DNA of 64,000 bases from Phytoseiulus persimilis (Eukaryota; Arthropoda; Arachnida; Mesostigmata; Phytoseiidae): assembly GCA_037576195.1 (NCBI GenBank), contig CM075102.1:49224745-49288744 (forward strand). The letters run 5' to 3'. Of the stretch, positions 36,391 to 58,500 are shown one piece after another. The translations under genes and the position numbers were made by a program. Position 1 is the first letter of the stretch. Each line of letters begins with the position of its first letter. The notes under the pieces are model-generated. The model worked only from the letters and a program-made list of their open reading frames with translations. It searched no databases and was not told the DNA's origin.

Positions 36391-38806
36391 CGTGCATGCT
36401 CGTTCAACGGAATTCAGCAAGCGTGTAGAAAGTACTGTGGAATTTGATGCCACAGCGGAAAACAAAGCGGAAGTTTCACCCACGGAATCATGACGCGGAT
36501 CTCAATAACCGAAGACGTGCTTAGACCTGTTACCAATGACACCCGAGCAACTAACAAGAAGATCGATAGATCGATCGAACACAGGGCAGAGTACACAAGA
36601 AACTGGTTTATCGAAACTGCATACTTTAGCGCAGCCATGTAATCGGACGTGAGCCGCTGAGGCGAGACTGTCACCTGGCTCTAGAGCGACGCTTGTGTGG
36701 AGTAGAACTCTATGGAGCGGAATCAGAGAGAGACCTGGGAACTGCCCTTTTAGATCCTGTATTATGTAATAAGAGCCTCACATTCCAGCTCATTTCCCAA
36801 TTTTTCTTGGTCGTGCGTGAATGCATGTCTTTCCTGAGGCTCTTTCCTCTATTCCCATTGCAATTTTCCCTCCTTTCCGCACTCGGAGTTCCTTTCGTGA
36901 ATCACAGGGTGTCCCCTTCGTGAGTTGTTCGTCAGAGAAAAAGGAGAGGAGAAAGAAGGAGCGCTGGGGCTCCAATCGAGTTCCTGGCTTGGTGAATTTG
37001 AAAAAGTAATGATGTTGAAGTTCTGTTTGCGTGAAAAGTTCCGAAGTTCTGTTGATTTCAGTATCAAAATACGATGATGGGAGTTCCATCCACGGAGCTC
37101 GCACAGCGAAATAAAGGCGACCATACACGATTCCAGTTCGGGTGCGACCAGACAACCTTCACTGGAGCCGAGACAAACACAACGGGAAAGGCCAATGGAA
37201 GAGTCAGCAATAACCGGAACTCTGCTGCATCCCTTCTTACGAGGCTCCACCGGGCTGTATATGAGCTCAGAGACTGGAACCCGTGTCGCTCACCTCGATG
37301 ATTCGACGCGGATGCGTGTGAGTGTGTCATCCAGCGCTCCACGTGAGAAGCAGGACGTTTCTCCCCAACTCTTGAAAGGCGATACTCGCAATTCTGCTTG
37401 ATGATAACGTTCAGTGTTCGTCCACCGCACGATCGAGTCTTCATCTCGACGCCGTCAACTCGATCGGAGCTCGGCCACAGAAGGGAGGCACTCGGGCTTC
37501 TTGTGGGGTGTCTTCCGCTTGCAACGGGTAAGGAGCTGGAAGTGCGTCACAAAGCTGCTCACAGATATCGCCGGTGGTTCTCTCAAGCCACGAAACCGTC
37601 TGCGTCTCAAAACGCTCTGTCTTGTAGCCCAACCGGCTCTACATCCCACCAACTTGAAGTACGTGACTGCAATCAACCCACGTTAAATGAAGAACCTTGA
37701 GTCCGTGCCTTCGTCCTATTGCTCGACTTCTCGACTGCGGCTTCCTCCAACGCGTTTCCTGAACCATAACCTCGGTGCCTTCGTTTTCGCCGAACATCAG
37801 CCACGAGTCGCCTGCTTCGGCTGCGCCAGCCAAGAGCCTTGCTAACCGTCAACGAGCGACTTCATATCATTGCTTTCATAAGGTAATACGTCCGCTGAGC
37901 CAACGGGTATGGTTCGACCGACCTCGGAATCGTTTCCATAAATCGGGCTACCCCCAGGGATCGATTTCGTCCGTAAAAGATGCTCCAGCGCGATTCGGAG
38001 GTATCGGATGTCGATTGGCGCCGACGCCAGAGGCTCGGGCGTCATCCCGACGGAGAGCGGTCTTGGAAAAGTCCGAGCTCCTCAAGCTACCGTGAATGTT
38101 TGTTAGAGATACTTATTTTTCGTCCCTCGTGACATAGATACGTTGTTCAGTGGTCGCAACAGCTTCCCGGGAGAGAACAGAATGCAGAGTTCTTCCTCCG
38201 ATCTACAGACCCATTTCATGGGAAGAACGGGCTCACAAGCTCGTGATCTCGACACTCTCTGGGGGAAACGACACAGTACTTTTGGAACACTTCAAAGGAC
38301 CCCGTGGGCATTGCGGTCACCTCAGCCATTCTTCATGGCGATGCCGACCGAACTACGGAATTGTCTGAAATTTCATCGGCTAGCTGTTGTCGCAGATAGA
38401 GACGAGCCTGAGGGAAGCGAGCCACCGGAGTTCGGAACACGAACTCTGTGCACATCGGGTTTCTCGTCGAGAGAACAAAGAAGTGTGTAAACAATCTTTG
38501 TGATGGACCGATTGCATCAATGTTTCGATGTGCACGTTTAGATTTGAGGAGGCGCGCAGTTGATTCGCGAGCGCGGTCAGCGTGGCAATAGTCGCCGAGA
38601 ACATCAGCTGCACATCTGTTGATTTCATTTACAATTGAACCCAACTCTAGAGCCGGAAAACATGCCATCATCGTCCAGAGGTACAGTTTTACTCATACAG
38701 CCGAGGTCAGATCCCGAGCCAATGAGCTTTACCTGCCCAGCTCGTGATCCGGGAACACGTAGTTGCTGGGGCGAATGAGAACATTTTATTTTCTCCGTGA
38801 AGATAG
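36391..38806. other. Region 5' of the Tudor gene, upstream exons not resolved
   Basis: The Tudor gene must have further 5' exons, and this region is the likely place. Two plus-strand stretches are candidates. One is about 38151-38330, after an acceptor-like gttgttcag, reading LPPIYRPISWEERAHKLVIS. The other is about 38395-38488, after tgttgtcgcag, reading RDEPEGSEPPEFGTRTLCTS. Neither has a donor that fixes the phase. A minus-strand frame at 38380-38628 (VQLMFSATIATLTALANQL) is also fairly protein-like. None is certain enough to call. Confidence 0.3.
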
Positions 38807-41800
38807 CCGGGATACTTGGGCTCAGCCCGCGATTCCCTGGCGTACGTCGCAGCGGAGCACAGCGAACAACACGAGCAACGGCTGCAGTTCAGCCACGACC
38901 AGTTCGGGAGGGCTGTACAGGAATTTGCCGAAAGGCGCCCCCGCAAATTTTCCGCAAAGTAAAAAGGTTGGTGACTAAGGACATCTTGCTCAGTGAACTT
39001 GTCAAACCACGAGCCTTGCTTGAGTTGGGGGACGCCGCCACGATTGAGAAAAGATGGCAAGCTCAACTCGATAGAGGCTGCAGTTTCGCACTACACTGCT
39101 CCTTCCAGGACCCCTCTGAACCTTTGGGGAAGAGGGTATGGGATCACGAGGAGAAACAGGCAGAACCCGTCATCGCTCGTCGGAACAAATTGGTCGAGCG
39201 TTCCAGAGAGTATCTGCCCTGCTATGTCAAGCCTCGGCGCAGCGTCATCGAAACCGATGAGGAGCTTGAGGTCCGTTCAGACGCGATCAACAGGAGACAG
39301 GTTAGTTCCATTACGTAGCCAGAATCTCGTTCGTCATAGTGATATCGTTCCCCAGTAGTCATCTCGCTCGGAGTCTGATTCGCTCATATAAACTCGATGC
39401 GGATGTTTGTCCCCCAGGTGTGGGTCCGACCCATTGGTTCTCCATCGTTGACTCTGAGGGAAGCGCTAGAAAAGGCTGAATTGGTTCCTCTGCCAAGACT
39501 CAGGAAGGCGTATCCCATACTGGTCCTGACCCGCGATGATCAGCGAAAACGGTATTCTGAGACCATTGGAGATATTATCGCATTCATACTATGGCGGGAA
39601 CTTTCAAGCCTCCCTGTGGCGCTCCAATCACACTCCGACATGTTGTATAAGAGCCGGAGCTCAGCCAGGCCACAATGAAAATCAGTGCGATCAATCAGCG
39701 TGATCTGATGTAGATTCCCCACAAATAGAATGAGGGTAACCGAATCTGAGCTCAAGACTCGCGACTCCTTGCGAGAACTCATCGTATTCTTCTCATCAAC
39801 AGGGGACTGATTATAAGTGAAGACGGAAATTCCGTGGAGTATCTGGACGTTGACACTGGTCGAGTCGAGGAAGCCAGTGCGGAGCTGGTGTTTAAGCCGG
39901 ACGCTACCCTGCTATCGATTCCAAATGCCGCGATACGGTGAGATATGTTCAGTTTCCTTGTCGTTTCAATACATCGAAACGATACCGAGAGCCTTCCAGG
40001 GAGAACACCTCTCCGTTTATACATATAACTCATTTATTTAAACAGCTTGATCGTGCGCTTGGTTCTCCTTCTTCTTGCCACTGGCTCGAACCTGGTTGAA
40101 CGTCTCAGGATTGGCGGGAACGAGGTTGAACTCCTTGGCGAATTTACCGAGATCTCGCTGCATGGCGAACGCATCTTCGCCGTCGGCGTAGTATTTGGCT
40201 TCTGTGTCGCAGATCGCGAACCCTATGGATGGTAAAAGATTAGTCTTGCGATTCCGTCGAGCCATTCCGTCGGATCCATCCCGAAACAAAAACCATGACG
40301 GGCTCAGTTTTTCGTTCTCCTGGAATCTCACCTAGAGTATTCTGGTAGAGGTTCAGGGCGGCGCGGTTACTCCTACGGACGTGGAGAGATACGTATCTCG
40401 CGTTGAAACACTCCACCATTGCACGACTACTCTGATCCATGAGTTTTTTCGCCAAGCCACACCGCCTTCAGATAGACATTCGCGTTAGAAAAAGATCGCC
40501 GCGACACAAAGGAGCGTTCACACTGATGCTCAGTGTGACGTATCATTGAATCCGCTTGCTCAAGCGCTTCATCAAGTCACGGAGAGTTGGATAATCAAAC
40601 CATTTTCACCTATGTGATCTCTTCACTGCGAGCGAAGTTATATGGCCATGGGGTTCAGCATCATCACGATCATTTTCTTCCTCCATCTTCGCGAGCACGT
40701 AACCGACAATATCGCCTCTCTCGTCCTCGGCGACGTAACTTAATTGTGGCCAGCTGAGCCCATGGTAGAAGTAGTACTTCATTTGATAGTTTTCGGGCAA
40801 GCAGAGCAGGTTACAATGCTGCATGTTCATCAGATCCTCTGTTGTAGCGCACCGAATACTCGCCATATCGTCAGAGTCGAAGCCTGCCACTGTCCGGGGA
40901 AAAATACGGTTCGGCGGGCAGACCTACTGCGAGAACGTTTGGGTTGTCCGTAGGCAGACAGAACGAGCTCACAATTCCCACCTCGAAATGTTTGAGCTCG
41001 TTATTAGGAACTCTGTTCGATGCGGCAAAGAAGTGTAAGCACAAGAAACGGAGAGTCGACTGGATACGCCACTGATTCCGCGAGTGTCTGGGATTCGGGT
41101 CGGCTGCGAAGTTATGAATCGTAGCGCGCGACGCCTTCCGTGCAATTTCCATGATACTGAACGGGAATTCTGTGACATTGCTGCGCTGAGCGGAACGACG
41201 CGGTGCTCACACGTCGGGTTTCTCCTGTGTTTTCATGTCGAAATACCCAAAATCACATTCATGCCTTCTTCTACAGGTGTCGACTTGACACGAAAGATGA
41301 AGAATTGGATTCTAAGCTTCAAAGCCATAAGGCGAATTTGTCTCAGTGGACGAGAACGAGAGTCCATGTCATGAGATGGGGCTGCATACCAACTGTTTAT
41401 TTGAGCATCATCGAGCCGAACTTCGGTGAGTTTCCTGATGATTCCTGTTATTCTTCGTGGCAATGTCTTCAGTTCCGCCGGAACAGTCCTTGAGAGATGA
41501 TGGGAGCGTTCAGGTCCATTCGCGTATTTGCTTACTCATGTCCCGAACTGTAGATCTGAAGCCTGTGGTCGAACGACAACGGAGCGAGCCGGAGCGGAAG
41601 ATACAAAAGCTATATCGAACACTTCCGGGAATAGTGATACCTCCACCGTTCACCATCTTGAGGAACTGTTCCGTCTTACACGTGGAGGAAGATAATGCCT
41701 TCATAGTCCAGAACGATGCACCGTTCGAGACCGATCCGTCTGAGTCTACGGGAAACAACCAGTCTAGCCCTTCATTAAGGGAGCAAGAACAGCTTTATCT

Positions 41801-42361
41801 TGAGGGAGACATTGTTCGTGCTCAATATAATGAGCTAGAAATGAGGGTGATGATACGAGAAGTGACCGGTTCGGCTGTCGTAGTTCGCTCCGTCGACAGC
41901 GGCGCCACATACGAGGTCGGGGATTTCCGTGAACTGAAGCCACTGCTCAAGAGGTGAGTCTAGGGTTGTATTCGAACCCGATTTGAATTCTGATTCAACC
42001 GAGCAATGAGGAGAACTTTCCGTCTCCATTGTGATCTGCAGTTTATTCTGAGCATTGCGTTCCTCGATGAAAAATTTTGTCGTCTCAATCCACCACCAAT
42101 GCTTCCAGGGAGCCCTCGAGGGCCATGCGAGTGACACTTCCCAGGGAATACCTTAAATTGAGTCGGGAAGAATTGCCCGTCCTCCTCAAGACCGGAGTGT
42201 TCGACGTGTTCTTCGAGAGCAGCGAGAGTACTCCAAGAGTCCGCCTCTTCACTCAACGAGGGCAGGAGATACACGTTTGCCTTGCAAAGAAAACCGATCC
42301 CGTGATTCGCGCAGACGACAGTGAAGATGAAAGAAGTTCAACCAGGTCTTGCAGAGGCTGA
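38807..42361 (+). CDS. Tandem Tudor-domain protein (5' end incomplete)
   Basis: Seven exons join in consistent phase: 38807-38966, 39109-39300, 39418-39551, 39803-39937, 41277-41425, 41473-41953 and 42109-42361 (stop TGA). Most donors are gtgag or gttag type, and acceptors are pyrimidine-rich. The first exon encodes a Ser/Thr/Asn-rich, probably disordered segment. Exons 3-5 give one extended Tudor unit with the barrel signature ([10 protein letters not shown], then [19 protein letters not shown], then [11 protein letters not shown]). Exons 6-7 give a second ([34 protein letters not shown]) followed by the second half of the extended fold. The family binds symmetrically dimethylated arginine, commonly on Piwi-clade proteins in germ granules. 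Here the D-Y-G-N aromatic motif is replaced by DTGR and DSGA, so ligand binding is doubtful. The exact ortholog is not identified. The 38966 donor (gttggt) is weak, and exons upstream are missing. Confidence 0.78.
40033..40038 (-). promoter_or_regulatory. Poly(A) signal AATAAA at the NAA10 stop codon
   Basis: The minus strand reads TAAATAAATG at the end of NAA10. The AATAAA hexamer begins on the last base of the stop codon. If used, the 3' untranslated region would be only the few tens of bases to the cleavage site. No other canonical hexamer was noted close by. Confidence 0.55.
40038..40866 (-). CDS. NAA10: N-alpha-acetyltransferase 10, NatA catalytic subunit
   Basis: Three coding exons on the minus strand, 40610-40866, 40332-40465 and 40038-40222, join in phase to 191 residues. 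Introns are 144 and 109 bp with GTGAAA and GTGAGA donors. The product is the catalytic subunit of the ribosome-associated NatA complex. With NAA15 it acetylates the N-termini of nascent proteins after Met removal. The GNAT fold is nearly invariant with animal NAA10: [20 protein letters not shown] (11-30), [12 protein letters not shown] (74-85), the acetyl-CoA loop RRCGLA (86-91; usually RRLGLA), [19 protein letters not shown] (108-126) and [10 protein letters not shown]. Met at 40866 is chosen because it aligns with the family start; an upstream in-frame candidate at 40890 would add eight residues. The C-terminal tail after the GNAT domain is short and charged, about 40 residues shorter than in vertebrates. 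The whole gene lies within an intron of the Tudor gene on the opposite strand. Confidence 0.97.
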
Positions 42362-42445
42362 TGAAGCGGCCGGCAGCTGACTGGGAATGATAACTTGTGA
42401 TTGCATCCAGATCAGCTGAAGTGTTCGGCGGCTGCTTTCCTAAAT

Positions 42446-42451
42446 TTTAAT
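42446..42451 (-). promoter_or_regulatory. Possible poly(A) signal ATTAAA of the AMPK-alpha gene
   Basis: On the minus strand an ATTAAA hexamer lies about 225 bases past the AMPK-alpha stop. It is the nearest plausible signal that I can see. Its use would carry the AMPK-alpha transcript across the 3' untranslated region of the convergent Tudor gene. Confidence 0.35.
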
Positions 42452-42555
42452 CGTAGATCATGCTTTCAGTGGAATTTCAAGTTTGAATTAAGAGTACGCA
42501 TCCATAAATGATATCGAGCACTGACAGGTTAGCATTGTTATGGCTCGTGTCCGAG

Positions 42556-42561
42556 AATAAA
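42556..42561 (+). promoter_or_regulatory. Poly(A) signal AATAAA of the Tudor gene
   Basis: A canonical AATAAA hexamer 195 bases after the Tudor gene stop codon and about 115 bases short of the convergent AMPK-alpha stop. It fits as the Tudor gene cleavage signal. Confidence 0.6.
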
Positions 42562-42674
42562 GCTCGTCGAAGTGATGGAGGTTAACTGATCTGCCAGGAT
42601 CTCATTTTTTCTCGCTTTCGTTGCCACTGAACTCACAAAGCCGGGCTCAAAACCGTCGGGTCACCAAGCATGAT

Positions 42675-47220
<4,546 letters not shown>

Positions 47221-53200: not shown

Positions 53201-55595
53201 CTTCGCACGAACAAGCAAACTGACAGACAAAACAAGCACCACAAAAAAGTAACAAAAGCGAATGATAAAGCGAGCACCGCTCTGACGTCATTGCGAGAGC
53301 TCTGGGTGTGAATTGTGGTTTCCATACTTCTGCGGAGCGTTTTTTCTAGAGATAAAGACTCAGACAGACCACCGCGAGAACAAAGCTTGTAGTTTCACGA
53401 CTGTCTCGAAGGATAAATTGAAGTTGGCAAAAAGTTGCAACGGAAGGTTTGACTAACAATCTTTGAGCTTGGGTTAGGTTGCAGAGGGATTCTAACCTTT
53501 TTCAATCGAGCCACGCTTCAAGGGAATTCGTTCGTCTGAGCTCCTTCGGCAAATGTCCACGTCTGGGACTGATTTGAAGACGAGCATGACACGTCAAAAT
53601 CGCCATGAATCGATCAGTCGATGGACAGGCATCCGAACAAGCTGTCTGGTGAATGAGACACATCTGCATTGGATGGGGGAACGGAACAAAAGAGCAGCGA
53701 AGAGACCGAAATGGGGGAAAACAAGCTTTCCATGTTATAATAAAAGAGGCGGAATCGTTTAAGAACTTTTTGGAGAGTTCATCTTTATCGCCGCGCGCAT
53801 ATCAAATGTGATTGCTCGCCTGTTACTGAATGTGCGCTCGCAAGTCGGCCGTTTTCGTTCGTTTGAAATGTGGCGTGTGCTCGTGGGACGCATTCCAAGC
53901 AGTTTTTGCGGTAGATTATTTTTTTCGCGATAGATAAAAGAAACGATGTCTCTCTTTATGCTGAGAATGATGATGAGCCCAATAGACGGGAGTAGAACAT
54001 CTGTTGTTCAGCATGCAAACAGTACTTGGTTACACCTGAACGAGGGATCTACGGCCTCAAAGCCAATTTCGGAGCTCGTTATTCACTTTCGGATCGAACA
54101 CCCGGGATGTCCTCAGTTCCGCGGACTTGCGACTGAGCGGGAACGATATTTTTCTCTCTTCAATTGTTGCTCGAGCGCTCGTGCCGTCATCATTTTTCCC
54201 TCAACGTGATCTCCCGGATTCGTTTGCGCTCCTTATTCGCGAATCCGCGACGCTCCGCGAGACTCAATTATAACGTGGTCGCAAGCTCCGCAGAATCCAT
54301 CCGGTCCAGCCTCACCGGAGATTCGAGCTATTTTACCCGAAATACTTATCAATGTAGTCGTTTATACAGAAAAAAAGCTGCTGGACAATCGGTTCCACTT
54401 GAAAGCTGCTCCATGGATTCAAAGGAACAACGAAACCTCACGAGAAGCCGAAGGTTCTTGCTCGATTTCTGCGCTTGGAATGGGAAGCATTCCGTGAACG
54501 CGAGCGAAGCTTTGACAACACTGGGGAACCAGAAAAGTGGGATATCGGGCGGAGAAAAATTCCGATCGCAGAAATTCATGATTCAAGTCATGGCCAACAA
54601 TTGACGATCGACGTCAGCCCTATAGCCAGGTTTCTAATCGCTCAGTCGGTCGATTGAGCGGGTGAGCAACGGCGGTCTTGATTAGCGACTGCAGGAACTG
54701 AATGCTCCTGATGATGAAGGGCGGTTCTCACAGAATGGCACGTTTGAAGCTCTATGTCTGCCCGAACTCGATCGAGGGCTTGTGGAATATGTTTCGTTGG
54801 TAGGGCTAGAATCTGAAGGTGGATCGACTCTCCTCATTTTCATTCTTGAATCGAACTTTTGTCCCGAAATTCGCATCGAACGGGACTCCTACTCTCTTAG
54901 GCTGCCCAAGCAGGGTTCCCCGACTTGTGGAGTGCTGCAAGAGCTGTGAGCGCCTACTTACCGACGCCGTTGTCGAACGGGAAACGGACCAAGAGAGCCC
55001 CTCCGTGCAGGTTTGCACTGAGTACGAAAGGTACGACGTTCATCCACCGCATCACAGCGCTGGTCTCCGGTTGCTCTTTTTGAGATTGTCCTGTGCCCAC
55101 GACGACGGGGAAGTTTCTGTTCAGATCGAAGTCGGCTGCGTTGTTCCTACCCGTGATCCCCACGCAGTTGCCGTGTTGCGATCGCTCCATGCCATCCGGG
55201 TTCATGGTGGGCATAATGTGCACGATCGTGTTCTCCAAGAACCACTTCATCTGCGGGTCCGTGTCAAAGGTGTTCACCATGTAGGTGATGAGGTGTAGGA
55301 GCATTTCCTTGCCCACGACCTCGTTGCCGTGCATGTTGCCGATGTAGCGGATGTTTGGCTTCAAGAGCTGGTCTTCCGTGCTCTGTGAGGTGATCATGAC
55401 CGCCCAGAGATCTCGACCTTCTATGGATTTGCCGACGGAGTACAATGTGACGAGGTCTGGTCGGTAATTCGTCAAATTGACCAGCACATCCGTCATCTGT
55501 CTAAAGTCATGGTACCGGTAAGGCAGCAGAAACCTCGCTTGCACTGCGGTCAAAACGAGCGCGAGGACCCAGCACGTCAGCTGGAGGAGGTGCAT
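47221..55595 (-). CDS. Secreted M14B zinc metallocarboxypeptidase (carboxypeptidase M/N/D-like)
   Basis: Seven exons join to a complete 478-residue protein: 54962-55595, 50295-50381, 49852-49945, 49610-49752, 48188-48280, 47683-47778 and 47221-47510. This regulatory carboxypeptidase class removes C-terminal Arg or Lys from peptides in the secretory route or outside the cell. Residues 1-20 are a signal peptide (LLQLTCWVLALVLTAVQA). Zinc ligands are His89 and Glu92 (GNMHGNEVVGKE) and His197 (SANLHGGAL). Substrate residues lie in GRNNAADFDLNRNFP, and the catalytic Glu is Glu284 (SLEITLEISCCK). Exons 5-6 encode the transthyretin-like domain (GIISDDQGGPIGGARLVI, GEFWRILLPGAYTLLVSAEG, then SAVLNITL). 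The last about 75 residues match nothing known and lack a hydrophobic GPI-type tail, so the product is probably secreted. The Cys usual before F-E-I-T-L-E is Ser. The last exon could instead splice at a weak gtttgt near DKLAG. Confidence 0.93.
50382..54961 (-). other. Large first intron of the carboxypeptidase gene
   Basis: This 4.58-kb intron separates the signal-peptide and zinc-site exon from the rest of the carboxypeptidase gene. The other introns are 99 to 1329 bp. Its donor is GTAAGT and its acceptor ttcgtttgcag. I find no nested gene, repeat array or mobile-element remnant inside. Several open frames under 150 codons (for example 50338-50778 plus, 54164-54604 plus) lack any recognisable motif. 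Confidence 0.75.
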
Positions 55596-58500
55596 GCTGT
55601 ACAGTTTATTTCGTCCCTCCCAACTACTGCTTCCGAGTTCACGTTTGTAGAACGCGCACGATCACGCACCGCTCAACGAATGGTGGCACAGCACAATTTA
55701 CACGATGGAGAGGAATCAGCGACCTGGAGCGTCAATCCAACATACTCCTAGGCTAATAGGCATCTGGTAGAAACGATGTCATCCTCAGCGAGATGTGCCC
55801 ACACAAGACCTGAGCGAAGCGAGCACCGAGTCAAAGACGATCCGCGGACGAGCAGTTGTGTTGTATTGCGAACCGATTGATAGACTGATAGGCTATCCAT
55901 GACGCTCTAACGGTTCTCCCCCCTCACGCGTTCCCTCTTGCGGACAAACGGTGCCCTCTCCGCCGAAACTTTCGGCGGATTGCCGCCGCTGCCTCGTCGG
56001 GCACTTGGAACAACAAATTCTTGGCGGCTCACAGACTATTCTGTGGCGCACAAGACGCTCGCAACTCTCAGCATGGGAACGATGAGTGCCCATTAAAAAC
56101 AATGCGGATGAAAGCAACGACACGAGGCCTGTTAGTTGTTCACTTTCCGTTATGCAAGCGATTGGAAACGGCACTTCTCGCAAGTTCCCAGCAGCCACTT
56201 CAAAAAATCCCTCACAACTAGTAAAGGCTCCTGGAGCTTCCAACATTTAAGTTTCCCTTCCCGGAGGGATGCGTGGGAAGGAAACTTCCTCGACTGCGAT
56301 TTTTCTCGTTTTGTGAACGCATGTGTGAATCTAAAAAGTAAATTCAATTCCAAATAAGCGACACCACGTGCGTCTAAGACGAGAGAAAAACTGGCTTGCG
56401 ATGTGAGAATGGCAATCACAACAGCAAACACCGGTAATTCTTCAAACTTGCTGTAAGGAGATGCGAGATTTTAAATCCCCATACACTGGATCGAGGAGCT
56501 CGAAGTCCGCTCCTAATCTGACGCGGTCCTCTGACGAGGATCTCGCTCGTCCATACTGAGTCATTTTGCGATATCCATTGACGCAGGCCCAATCTCATCT
56601 GCTACTGCGAGGATCAGGGAGCTCGATCAGGTCGACGCATCAATGTTTCATGCGTAGTCTATAATTTCTCGTCTGTCATTCCATGAGCCACTTGCTGAAT
56701 GCTACAATTCGGATCTCCCACGAGCATCCACGAGTCGAACGATACTTCAAGGTGTCGGGCTCTGTCTCAAAGTAGATCATACAAGCTGTTCTTGGATGCA
56801 TAGAATGGAACACAATGCACGGTTTAACCAATGGTGAACTACGCAAGTCCAGCCGATAGCTCTAGTTACCGAAGGAAAGACAGTCCGTGATTCGTACTAG
56901 GTCGATTCTTCGAAGACATTTCAAGGTTCGTTCATTCTGTTCGAAGCGATATTGTCATCCGGAGAGGCTTGAACAGAAAGTAGAAGCAATCCGGTTCAGA
57001 ATATAGAATATGAGATGAGGCGTTCACAGCGCGCTCGGTCATTCACAACTTCGATCTGCATTCCAGTTGTCATTGCTGTGTTCACGAAGGCTAAGATTGT
57101 GCCCGAATCGGCTCTATCCGTTGAAGGTGCTGTTGCACGTGAGGCATTCAGGAACTCTATGCAATGTGAGCCGATTGTTGGTTACCGACTCTGAAGGGAT
57201 CGTCTCAACGTTGTGTGAATAAGAATTAGATCATCTGAGCGTGTGATTTGAGCTTCAAGATCGAATCGGGATTGAATCGGAAACGGGTCAAAACGCTCCG
57301 CCTCGAGGTCGTTATGCTTGAAATGAGATGTTTTGAGTGGCGATCCCACGAAATTCCGTATTTTAATTATGGAGGCAGATAATGGTAAGAATGGGGACGA
57401 AAGTGGGAAACCTGCTTGTGTTTATGTGGACAGGCTTCCCCGAAAACTGAGGAACTGCGGTAGGGTGCAATATCGTGCATAAGCAGAGCTCCCCGGAGAG
57501 CTGAGATAACTTTCCGTGGTATCGAGCTTGTCGGCCGTGAATCATCAATTCAATGAACGGAAAAGTTACCGTTCTCAATCCGCAGGCCCATTTGCGTGCT
57601 CGTTCAGTGTGGAGCAAGGTTCGACAGAATATTCTCCATCGAGGGCACCTTCGACCGCTAAACCAGTCTCCGTTGATACGAGTCTCGACTTGGAACAACC
57701 GATTCGCCGATAGGGAAATTGTGTTTCGTCATGAACTAGAAATTCTGTCGTTCTGAAAGGCAGAGTCTATGTACTTGGGTTTTCCCGCAAAATACGGCGA
57801 ATTTCCTGCGAAGTTTTCAGCAGATTTCGGCAGTGCTCTCGCAGTCAGTAACTCCAATTTATTGCCCAGACCGGCCGGACCATTCTAACAGTCTCCTATG
57901 GCGAGGACAGAGGCGACATCGCGTTCAGCAACTTGACAGCCTAATTCACGCCAAGGCTAGGAATTCGTTCGATTTCACTGCACTGCTTCTCGTTCTTCAT
58001 TGTCGTAACTAAATGATGGGATACAGAAGAGATTCATAGCAATCCGGAACACAGTCGAGGTATCGCCGGAGCTCTTCCCGGGTGAATCCCTTCATATTCT
58101 CGCAAGAAGTATTCTTTATCCACTTTCGGTAGAACCACGAGTCTCAGTCGCGCGAGAGAGGGTTGAGAATGTACGGCGCCAAATTGAGCTTGGCGTGTAA
58201 TTTATTCCTGAAGTGCAATGTATGTGATTTGCATGACGTTCACTCGCGGTCCGTCTTCCAGCATGAGGAGTGAGAACTGGAACCTGCGAACGCAGAAGTG
58301 TGAAGCCGATGGAGAACCTCATCCAATACGTTAAATTACGGTTCACCATTTGCAAACCGCAATTTGCAACTGCAAAAACATCTTTCAAACAACGGTATAG
58401 GCTGAAGACACCCCGAGTCATGGGAGAGTCGCATTACAACGGCGTAACGGGCAACGGTTTCTAGTTCGAGTGTTTTCATGCCAACACAGATTCCCTCTCA

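Follow-up and report, generated by a model that had tools for sequence, protein, structure and literature searches.

A complete NAA10 gene predicted to lie antisense within an intron of a Tudor-domain gene in the mite Phytoseiulus persimilis

In Phytoseiulus persimilis, a complete NAA10 gene appears, with good support from spliced frames and homology, to lie antisense within an intron of a Tudor-domain gene. The locus was read in a window of 64,000 nucleotides (the whole stretch of DNA analysed; assembly GCA_037576195.1, contig CM075102.1, forward-strand positions 49,224,745 to 49,288,744), and its features are collected in the table below. According to the spliced frames, the NAA10 coding span (40866-40038, minus strand; 829 bases) is wholly contained in a single host intron predicted at 39938-41276 on the plus strand, where it fills 62% of the 1339 bases; on one side, 100 bases separate the NAA10 stop from 39937, the last base of the preceding host exon, and on the other, 410 bases lie between the NAA10 start codon and 41277, where the next host exon begins. 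The first-pass annotation had described a complete three-exon NAA10 nested antisense in a Tudor gene, and re-reading the window bears this out, with frames and homology in agreement and the junctions 39937/41277 of the host and 40610/40465 of NAA10 falling exactly where it had placed them. Open frames, splice signals and homology directly support both genes at the locus, and neither is closely duplicated in the assembly. The best explanation, which the sequence renders highly probable, is that two unrelated protein-coding genes share the locus, NAA10 occupying the host intron in antisense orientation and each gene producing its own mRNA.

Table. Features of the nested locus, in positions of the window (a slash marks a splice boundary).
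Feature	Position	Strand	Basis
Upstream coding exon of the host, frame continuous with the exons that follow; 5' boundary tentative	38994..39300	+	open frame, donor ACAG/GTTAGTTC
Host exon, beginning of Tudor domain 1; ends ...AACG/GTATTC at 39551	39418..39551	+	splice sites, phase
Host exon with the core of Tudor domain 1, closing in ...NAAIR; CAACAG/GGGA ... TACG/GTGAGATA	39803..39937	+	splice sites, phase, profile alignment
Host intron, GT-AG, phase 2, contains NAA10	39938..41276	+	predicted from sequence
Host exon finishing Tudor domain 1 (CRL...) and continuing into a further segment; TTCTACAG/GTGT	41277..41425	+	splice sites, acceptor ranking, profile
Host exon, core of Tudor domain 2	41554..41953	+	splice sites, Pfam, profile
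Final coding exon of the host, with the TGA stop at 42359-42361	42109..42361	+	splice sites, frame
First coding exon of NAA10, with the start codon from 40866	40610..40866	-	spliced frame, PDB match
NAA10 coding exon 2	40332..40465	-	spliced frame, PDB match
NAA10 coding exon 3 with stop TAA (40040-40038)	40038..40222	-	spliced frame, PDB match
AATAAA hexamer, candidate poly(A) signal, sharing position 40038 with the NAA10 stop	40033..40038	-	read from sequence

NAA10 is the catalytic subunit of the NatA N-terminal acetyltransferase, in which NAA15 is its partner. The product predicted here has 191 residues and is encoded across two introns, both GT-AG. Its top matches in PDB are chains named N-alpha-acetyltransferase 10 (residues 1-162, E 1.5e-81), and the same protein matches NAA20 (E 9.6e-24), NAA30 (E 7.5e-11) and NAA50 (E 1.9e-5) less closely, making NAA10 the nearest relative. 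A Pfam Acetyltransf_1 match (E 1.4e-19) accompanies this assignment, and the sequence RRCGLA, which aligns with RRLGLA, agrees with the acetyl-CoA binding motif R-x-x-G-x-A; in an NCBIfam search, none of the 17 matches to the protein reached its cut-off. The whole GNAT domain is shared with structures 9fpz and 6c95, presumably human, over residues 1-162 with three gapped residues, whereas the full-length NAA10 chains of the best PDB matches comprise 235-236 residues and the mite protein ends after 191 with a short lysine-containing tail. When NAA10 was searched against its own assembly (181 Mb, 127 contigs), six matches were obtained at E <=0.001, three of which are its own exons; the remaining three, at two other places, are only 32-36% identical. 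The locus thus apparently carries the sole NAA10 of the assembly. Because the gene contains two introns and lacks a close duplicate elsewhere in the assembly, its derivation as a retrocopy was rejected.

Under the preferred reading, the host would be a plus-strand gene carrying two degenerate Tudor domains, and its 1.34-kb intron would house an unrelated protein-coding gene, NAA10, on the opposite strand. NAA10 would be transcribed from its own promoter, probably located in the 410-base gap that lies between the host exon at 41277 and the NAA10 start codon, and would be spliced twice and end about 100 bases short of the other host exon, so that each gene would have a separate mRNA. The candidate poly(A) signal lies 95 bases from that exon boundary. 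We infer both the transcription and splicing of the two genes as drawn and the positions at which NAA10 transcription starts and ends. It had previously been claimed that the nesting places the NAA10 promoter inside the host intron; such a location is likely but is not forced, as the 5' UTR might extend into the exon at 41277.

How the arrangement came about, and whether it has consequences for expression, can be considered on the same layout. Because NAA10 is interrupted by introns and the assembly showed no close duplicate of it, there is room for an origin in which a single-copy, intron-containing NAA10 came first and was later enclosed by the Tudor gene as the latter captured exons farther downstream. 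We regard this as unlikely; if true, the promoter of the enzyme would have become locked in the host intron and its expression coupled to host expression. A functional role for the nesting, in which host transcription regulates NAA10, or the reverse, through antisense interference, would be compatible with two separately transcribed genes. The opposite strands and the tight spacing to the host exons (100 and 410 bases) would suit such regulation, and interference between nested genes in Drosophila is on record in a passage of PMC8467205, but another passage of the same source reports that mammalian nested genes diverge in expression no differently than unnested ones, and regulation of this kind seems quite improbable here. 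Hypomorphic Naa10 (vnc) mutants of Drosophila show oogenesis defects, according to a section of PMC6063908, so that ovarian expression common to the host and NAA10 is conceivable.

Further evidence for the nest concerns the host junction that spans NAA10. The two bases CG at 39937 and the G at 41277 together form an arginine codon, after which the reading frame continues uninterrupted until the TGA that closes at 42361, whereas reading through past 39937 meets an immediate stop (CGG TGA). The earlier claim of a perfect-phase join from 39937 to 41277 that finishes a Tudor barrel (...NAAIRC) withstands scrutiny at the level of sequence, where phase, open frame and acceptor rank agree. To rank the acceptor, AG sites in 39990-46000 were tried with the donor at 39937 and scored by a TUDOR profile of the mite's own genome, aligned from 20 of the 25 genomic matches above the Pfam cut-off, with the host left out. 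When 12 residues were kept past the junction, 41277 ranked first among 388 acceptors with 22.6 bits; the other acceptors averaged 15.8 bits (SD 1.2; next best 21.4), and the entry with no continuation scored lowest, at 14.0. An open frame of at least 45 codons is kept by 64 of the 388. With long continuations (up to about 130 residues), 41277 ranked sixth of 387 entries, comprising 386 acceptors and one without continuation; the five higher-ranking sites, at 41507-41780, lie within the Tudor domain 2 exon or shortly upstream of it and so bring in that second domain. On the donor side, 95 of 144 GT sites were scored, and 39938 led with 15.5 bits against 5.0 for the runner-up, in a comparison biased towards it as the sole donor that keeps the whole Tudor exon, with the earlier host introns left in.

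These results bear on the proposal that two separate plus-strand Tudor genes or fragments merely flank NAA10, with no splicing across it. A weak Tudor-like stretch does lie on each side of NAA10, and the upstream part has an uncertain 5' end. Nevertheless, the upstream exon halts inside a Tudor domain at a good donor (TACG/GTGAGA), the downstream exon supplies the missing end of that domain in the right phase from the top-ranked acceptor, and the open frame 41176-41493, which holds exon 41277-41425, lacks any ATG from the stop that precedes it up to the residues CRL..., all of which make two independent genes very unlikely.

A single host gene is further supported by the continuity of its frame. 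The six host exons from 38994 to 42361 join as one open frame through five GT-AG introns, with no stop or frameshift between 38994 and 42358. Upstream of this, a 509-residue host model was assembled with a start codon at 38662 and an exon at 38826-38958; it is open throughout and was used for the Pfam and PDB searches, its first ~50 residues being uncertain. The model needs a 35-base intron at 38959-38993 (plus strand), and this frame-restoring GT-AG stretch is probably too short for a genuine intron. An alternative donor at 38842, taken from the list of splice sites, would give a 152-base intron in phase, and an open frame at 38779-39315 runs on upstream without the 35-base intron. Codon usage marks 38932-39273 as coding-like, by a score whose training set included part of the host exon 38994-39300.

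Downstream, the host meets a gene for an AMP-activated protein kinase alpha subunit (42678-44165, minus strand), a single open frame of 496 residues with kinase, autoinhibitory and adenylate-sensor domains; the two genes converge, their 3' coding ends lying about 310 bases apart. Between 38000 and 44500, no structured RNA was found at Rfam gathering scores. Farther along the window, an open frame at 54957-55661 (minus strand) encodes a zinc carboxypeptidase (Peptidase_M14, E 3e-50). The first part of the window (1-36000) has a G+C content of 50-58%, and no segment of it passes the codon-usage score, which was trained on three genes only; four long open frames from this part gave no Pfam match.

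The Tudor character of the host emerges mainly from the joined product. Against Pfam TUDOR (PF00567), the 509-residue model scored 28.9 bits over two stretches, above the curated cut-off of 23. The upstream part up to NAAI had no TUDOR match at E 10; once the residues after 41277 were added, it scored 12.9 bits (E 0.12), below the cut-off, with an alignment extending to position 120 of the 121 in the profile. By itself, the downstream part scored 19.8 bits, also below the cut-off. The own-genome profile recovered two host domains, at 20.2 and 17.7 bits, the first of which spans the junction. When the genome was searched for TUDOR exon by exon, 25 matches exceeded the Pfam cut-off, none of them at the host locus, where no single exon matched at E 0.001. 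Tudor domains are thus not rare in this genome, given the 25 other exon-level matches. A comparison of the host with PDB returned nothing meaningful, the best hit being an alphaRep chain at E 0.032. Recent duplication was likewise considered as the source of the host and rejected: five of its six assembly matches at E 10 are the host itself, and the sixth has an E value of 0.637.

Aromatic cage residues in the Tudor barrel mark the germline Tudor proteins that read sDMA. At the profile positions 'rfyRa' and 'ffvDyG', domain 1 of the host reads QRKRG and LDVDTG and domain 2 reads LEMRV and RSVDSG; the methyl-arginine cage is therefore missing, the expected aromatic residues being absent from both barrels in the alignment to the own-genome profile. 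Like multi-Tudor proteins (PF00567), the host has two TUDOR matches and a joined score above the cut-off; it departs from them in being non-aromatic in both domains where they carry aromatics at the expected cage positions. The earlier interpretation accordingly stands in part: the nesting holds, while the description of the host as a probable germline gene is not established, its Tudor domains being weak and devoid of the usual cage, and a germline function for it is a guess. The absent cage residues, the weak similarity and the lack of a paralogue in the assembly could also suggest that NAA10 is an ordinary gene in the remains of a decaying Tudor pseudogene, but the six joined exons open from 38994 to 42358, their GT-AG sites throughout and the distinctive codon usage of two host segments (both among the score's training data) render this extremely improbable.

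Nested genes are an established feature of animal genomes. One part of PMC3786989 puts them at ~6% of genes in Drosophila, with ~2.1% for C. elegans and 0.5% for human, and describes most as situated in large introns, an opposite-strand orientation being frequent. In the text drawn from PMC8527503, a survey of 1058 eukaryotic genomes found a negligible share of nested intronic genes outside animals, and in a ctenophore, 12.24% of exonic bases were nested intronic, a level called similar to that of primates and some arthropods. Because such nested genes are common in animals, the arrangement in P. persimilis is in itself ordinary. A literature search covering titles and the openings of abstracts found no description of NAA10 nested in a Tudor gene.

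The locus offers a clean case of a conserved enzyme gene without a close second copy placed antisense in a small intron, and, as an atypical nested gene, it could inform how nests form. It also carries a practical warning, in that a deletion in either gene may affect the other, and unstranded expression data for one may be confused by its partner.

Several known pairs provide points of comparison. Two of them, 2mit within tim2 of Drosophila (a passage of PMC3786989) and the gart/Pcp pair (a passage of PMC3160391), resemble the present locus in that one intron holds an entire coding gene, unrelated to its host and oppositely oriented; those pairs involve other genes, whereas here a conserved enzyme occupies a 1.3-kb intron. 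The papilin/helicase pair of the tick Rhipicephalus microplus, described in part of PMC3160391, likewise represents nested genes in a chelicerate genome; shared exon regions are reported for that pair, in contrast to NAA10 and its host, whose coding exons do not overlap. The typical nested gene, as characterized in a passage of PMC8467205, is short, intronless and often a young duplicate, from which NAA10 differs in having introns and no close second copy seen in the assembly. The locus is a new example of a known nested arrangement, in which the pair of genes involved is unusual.
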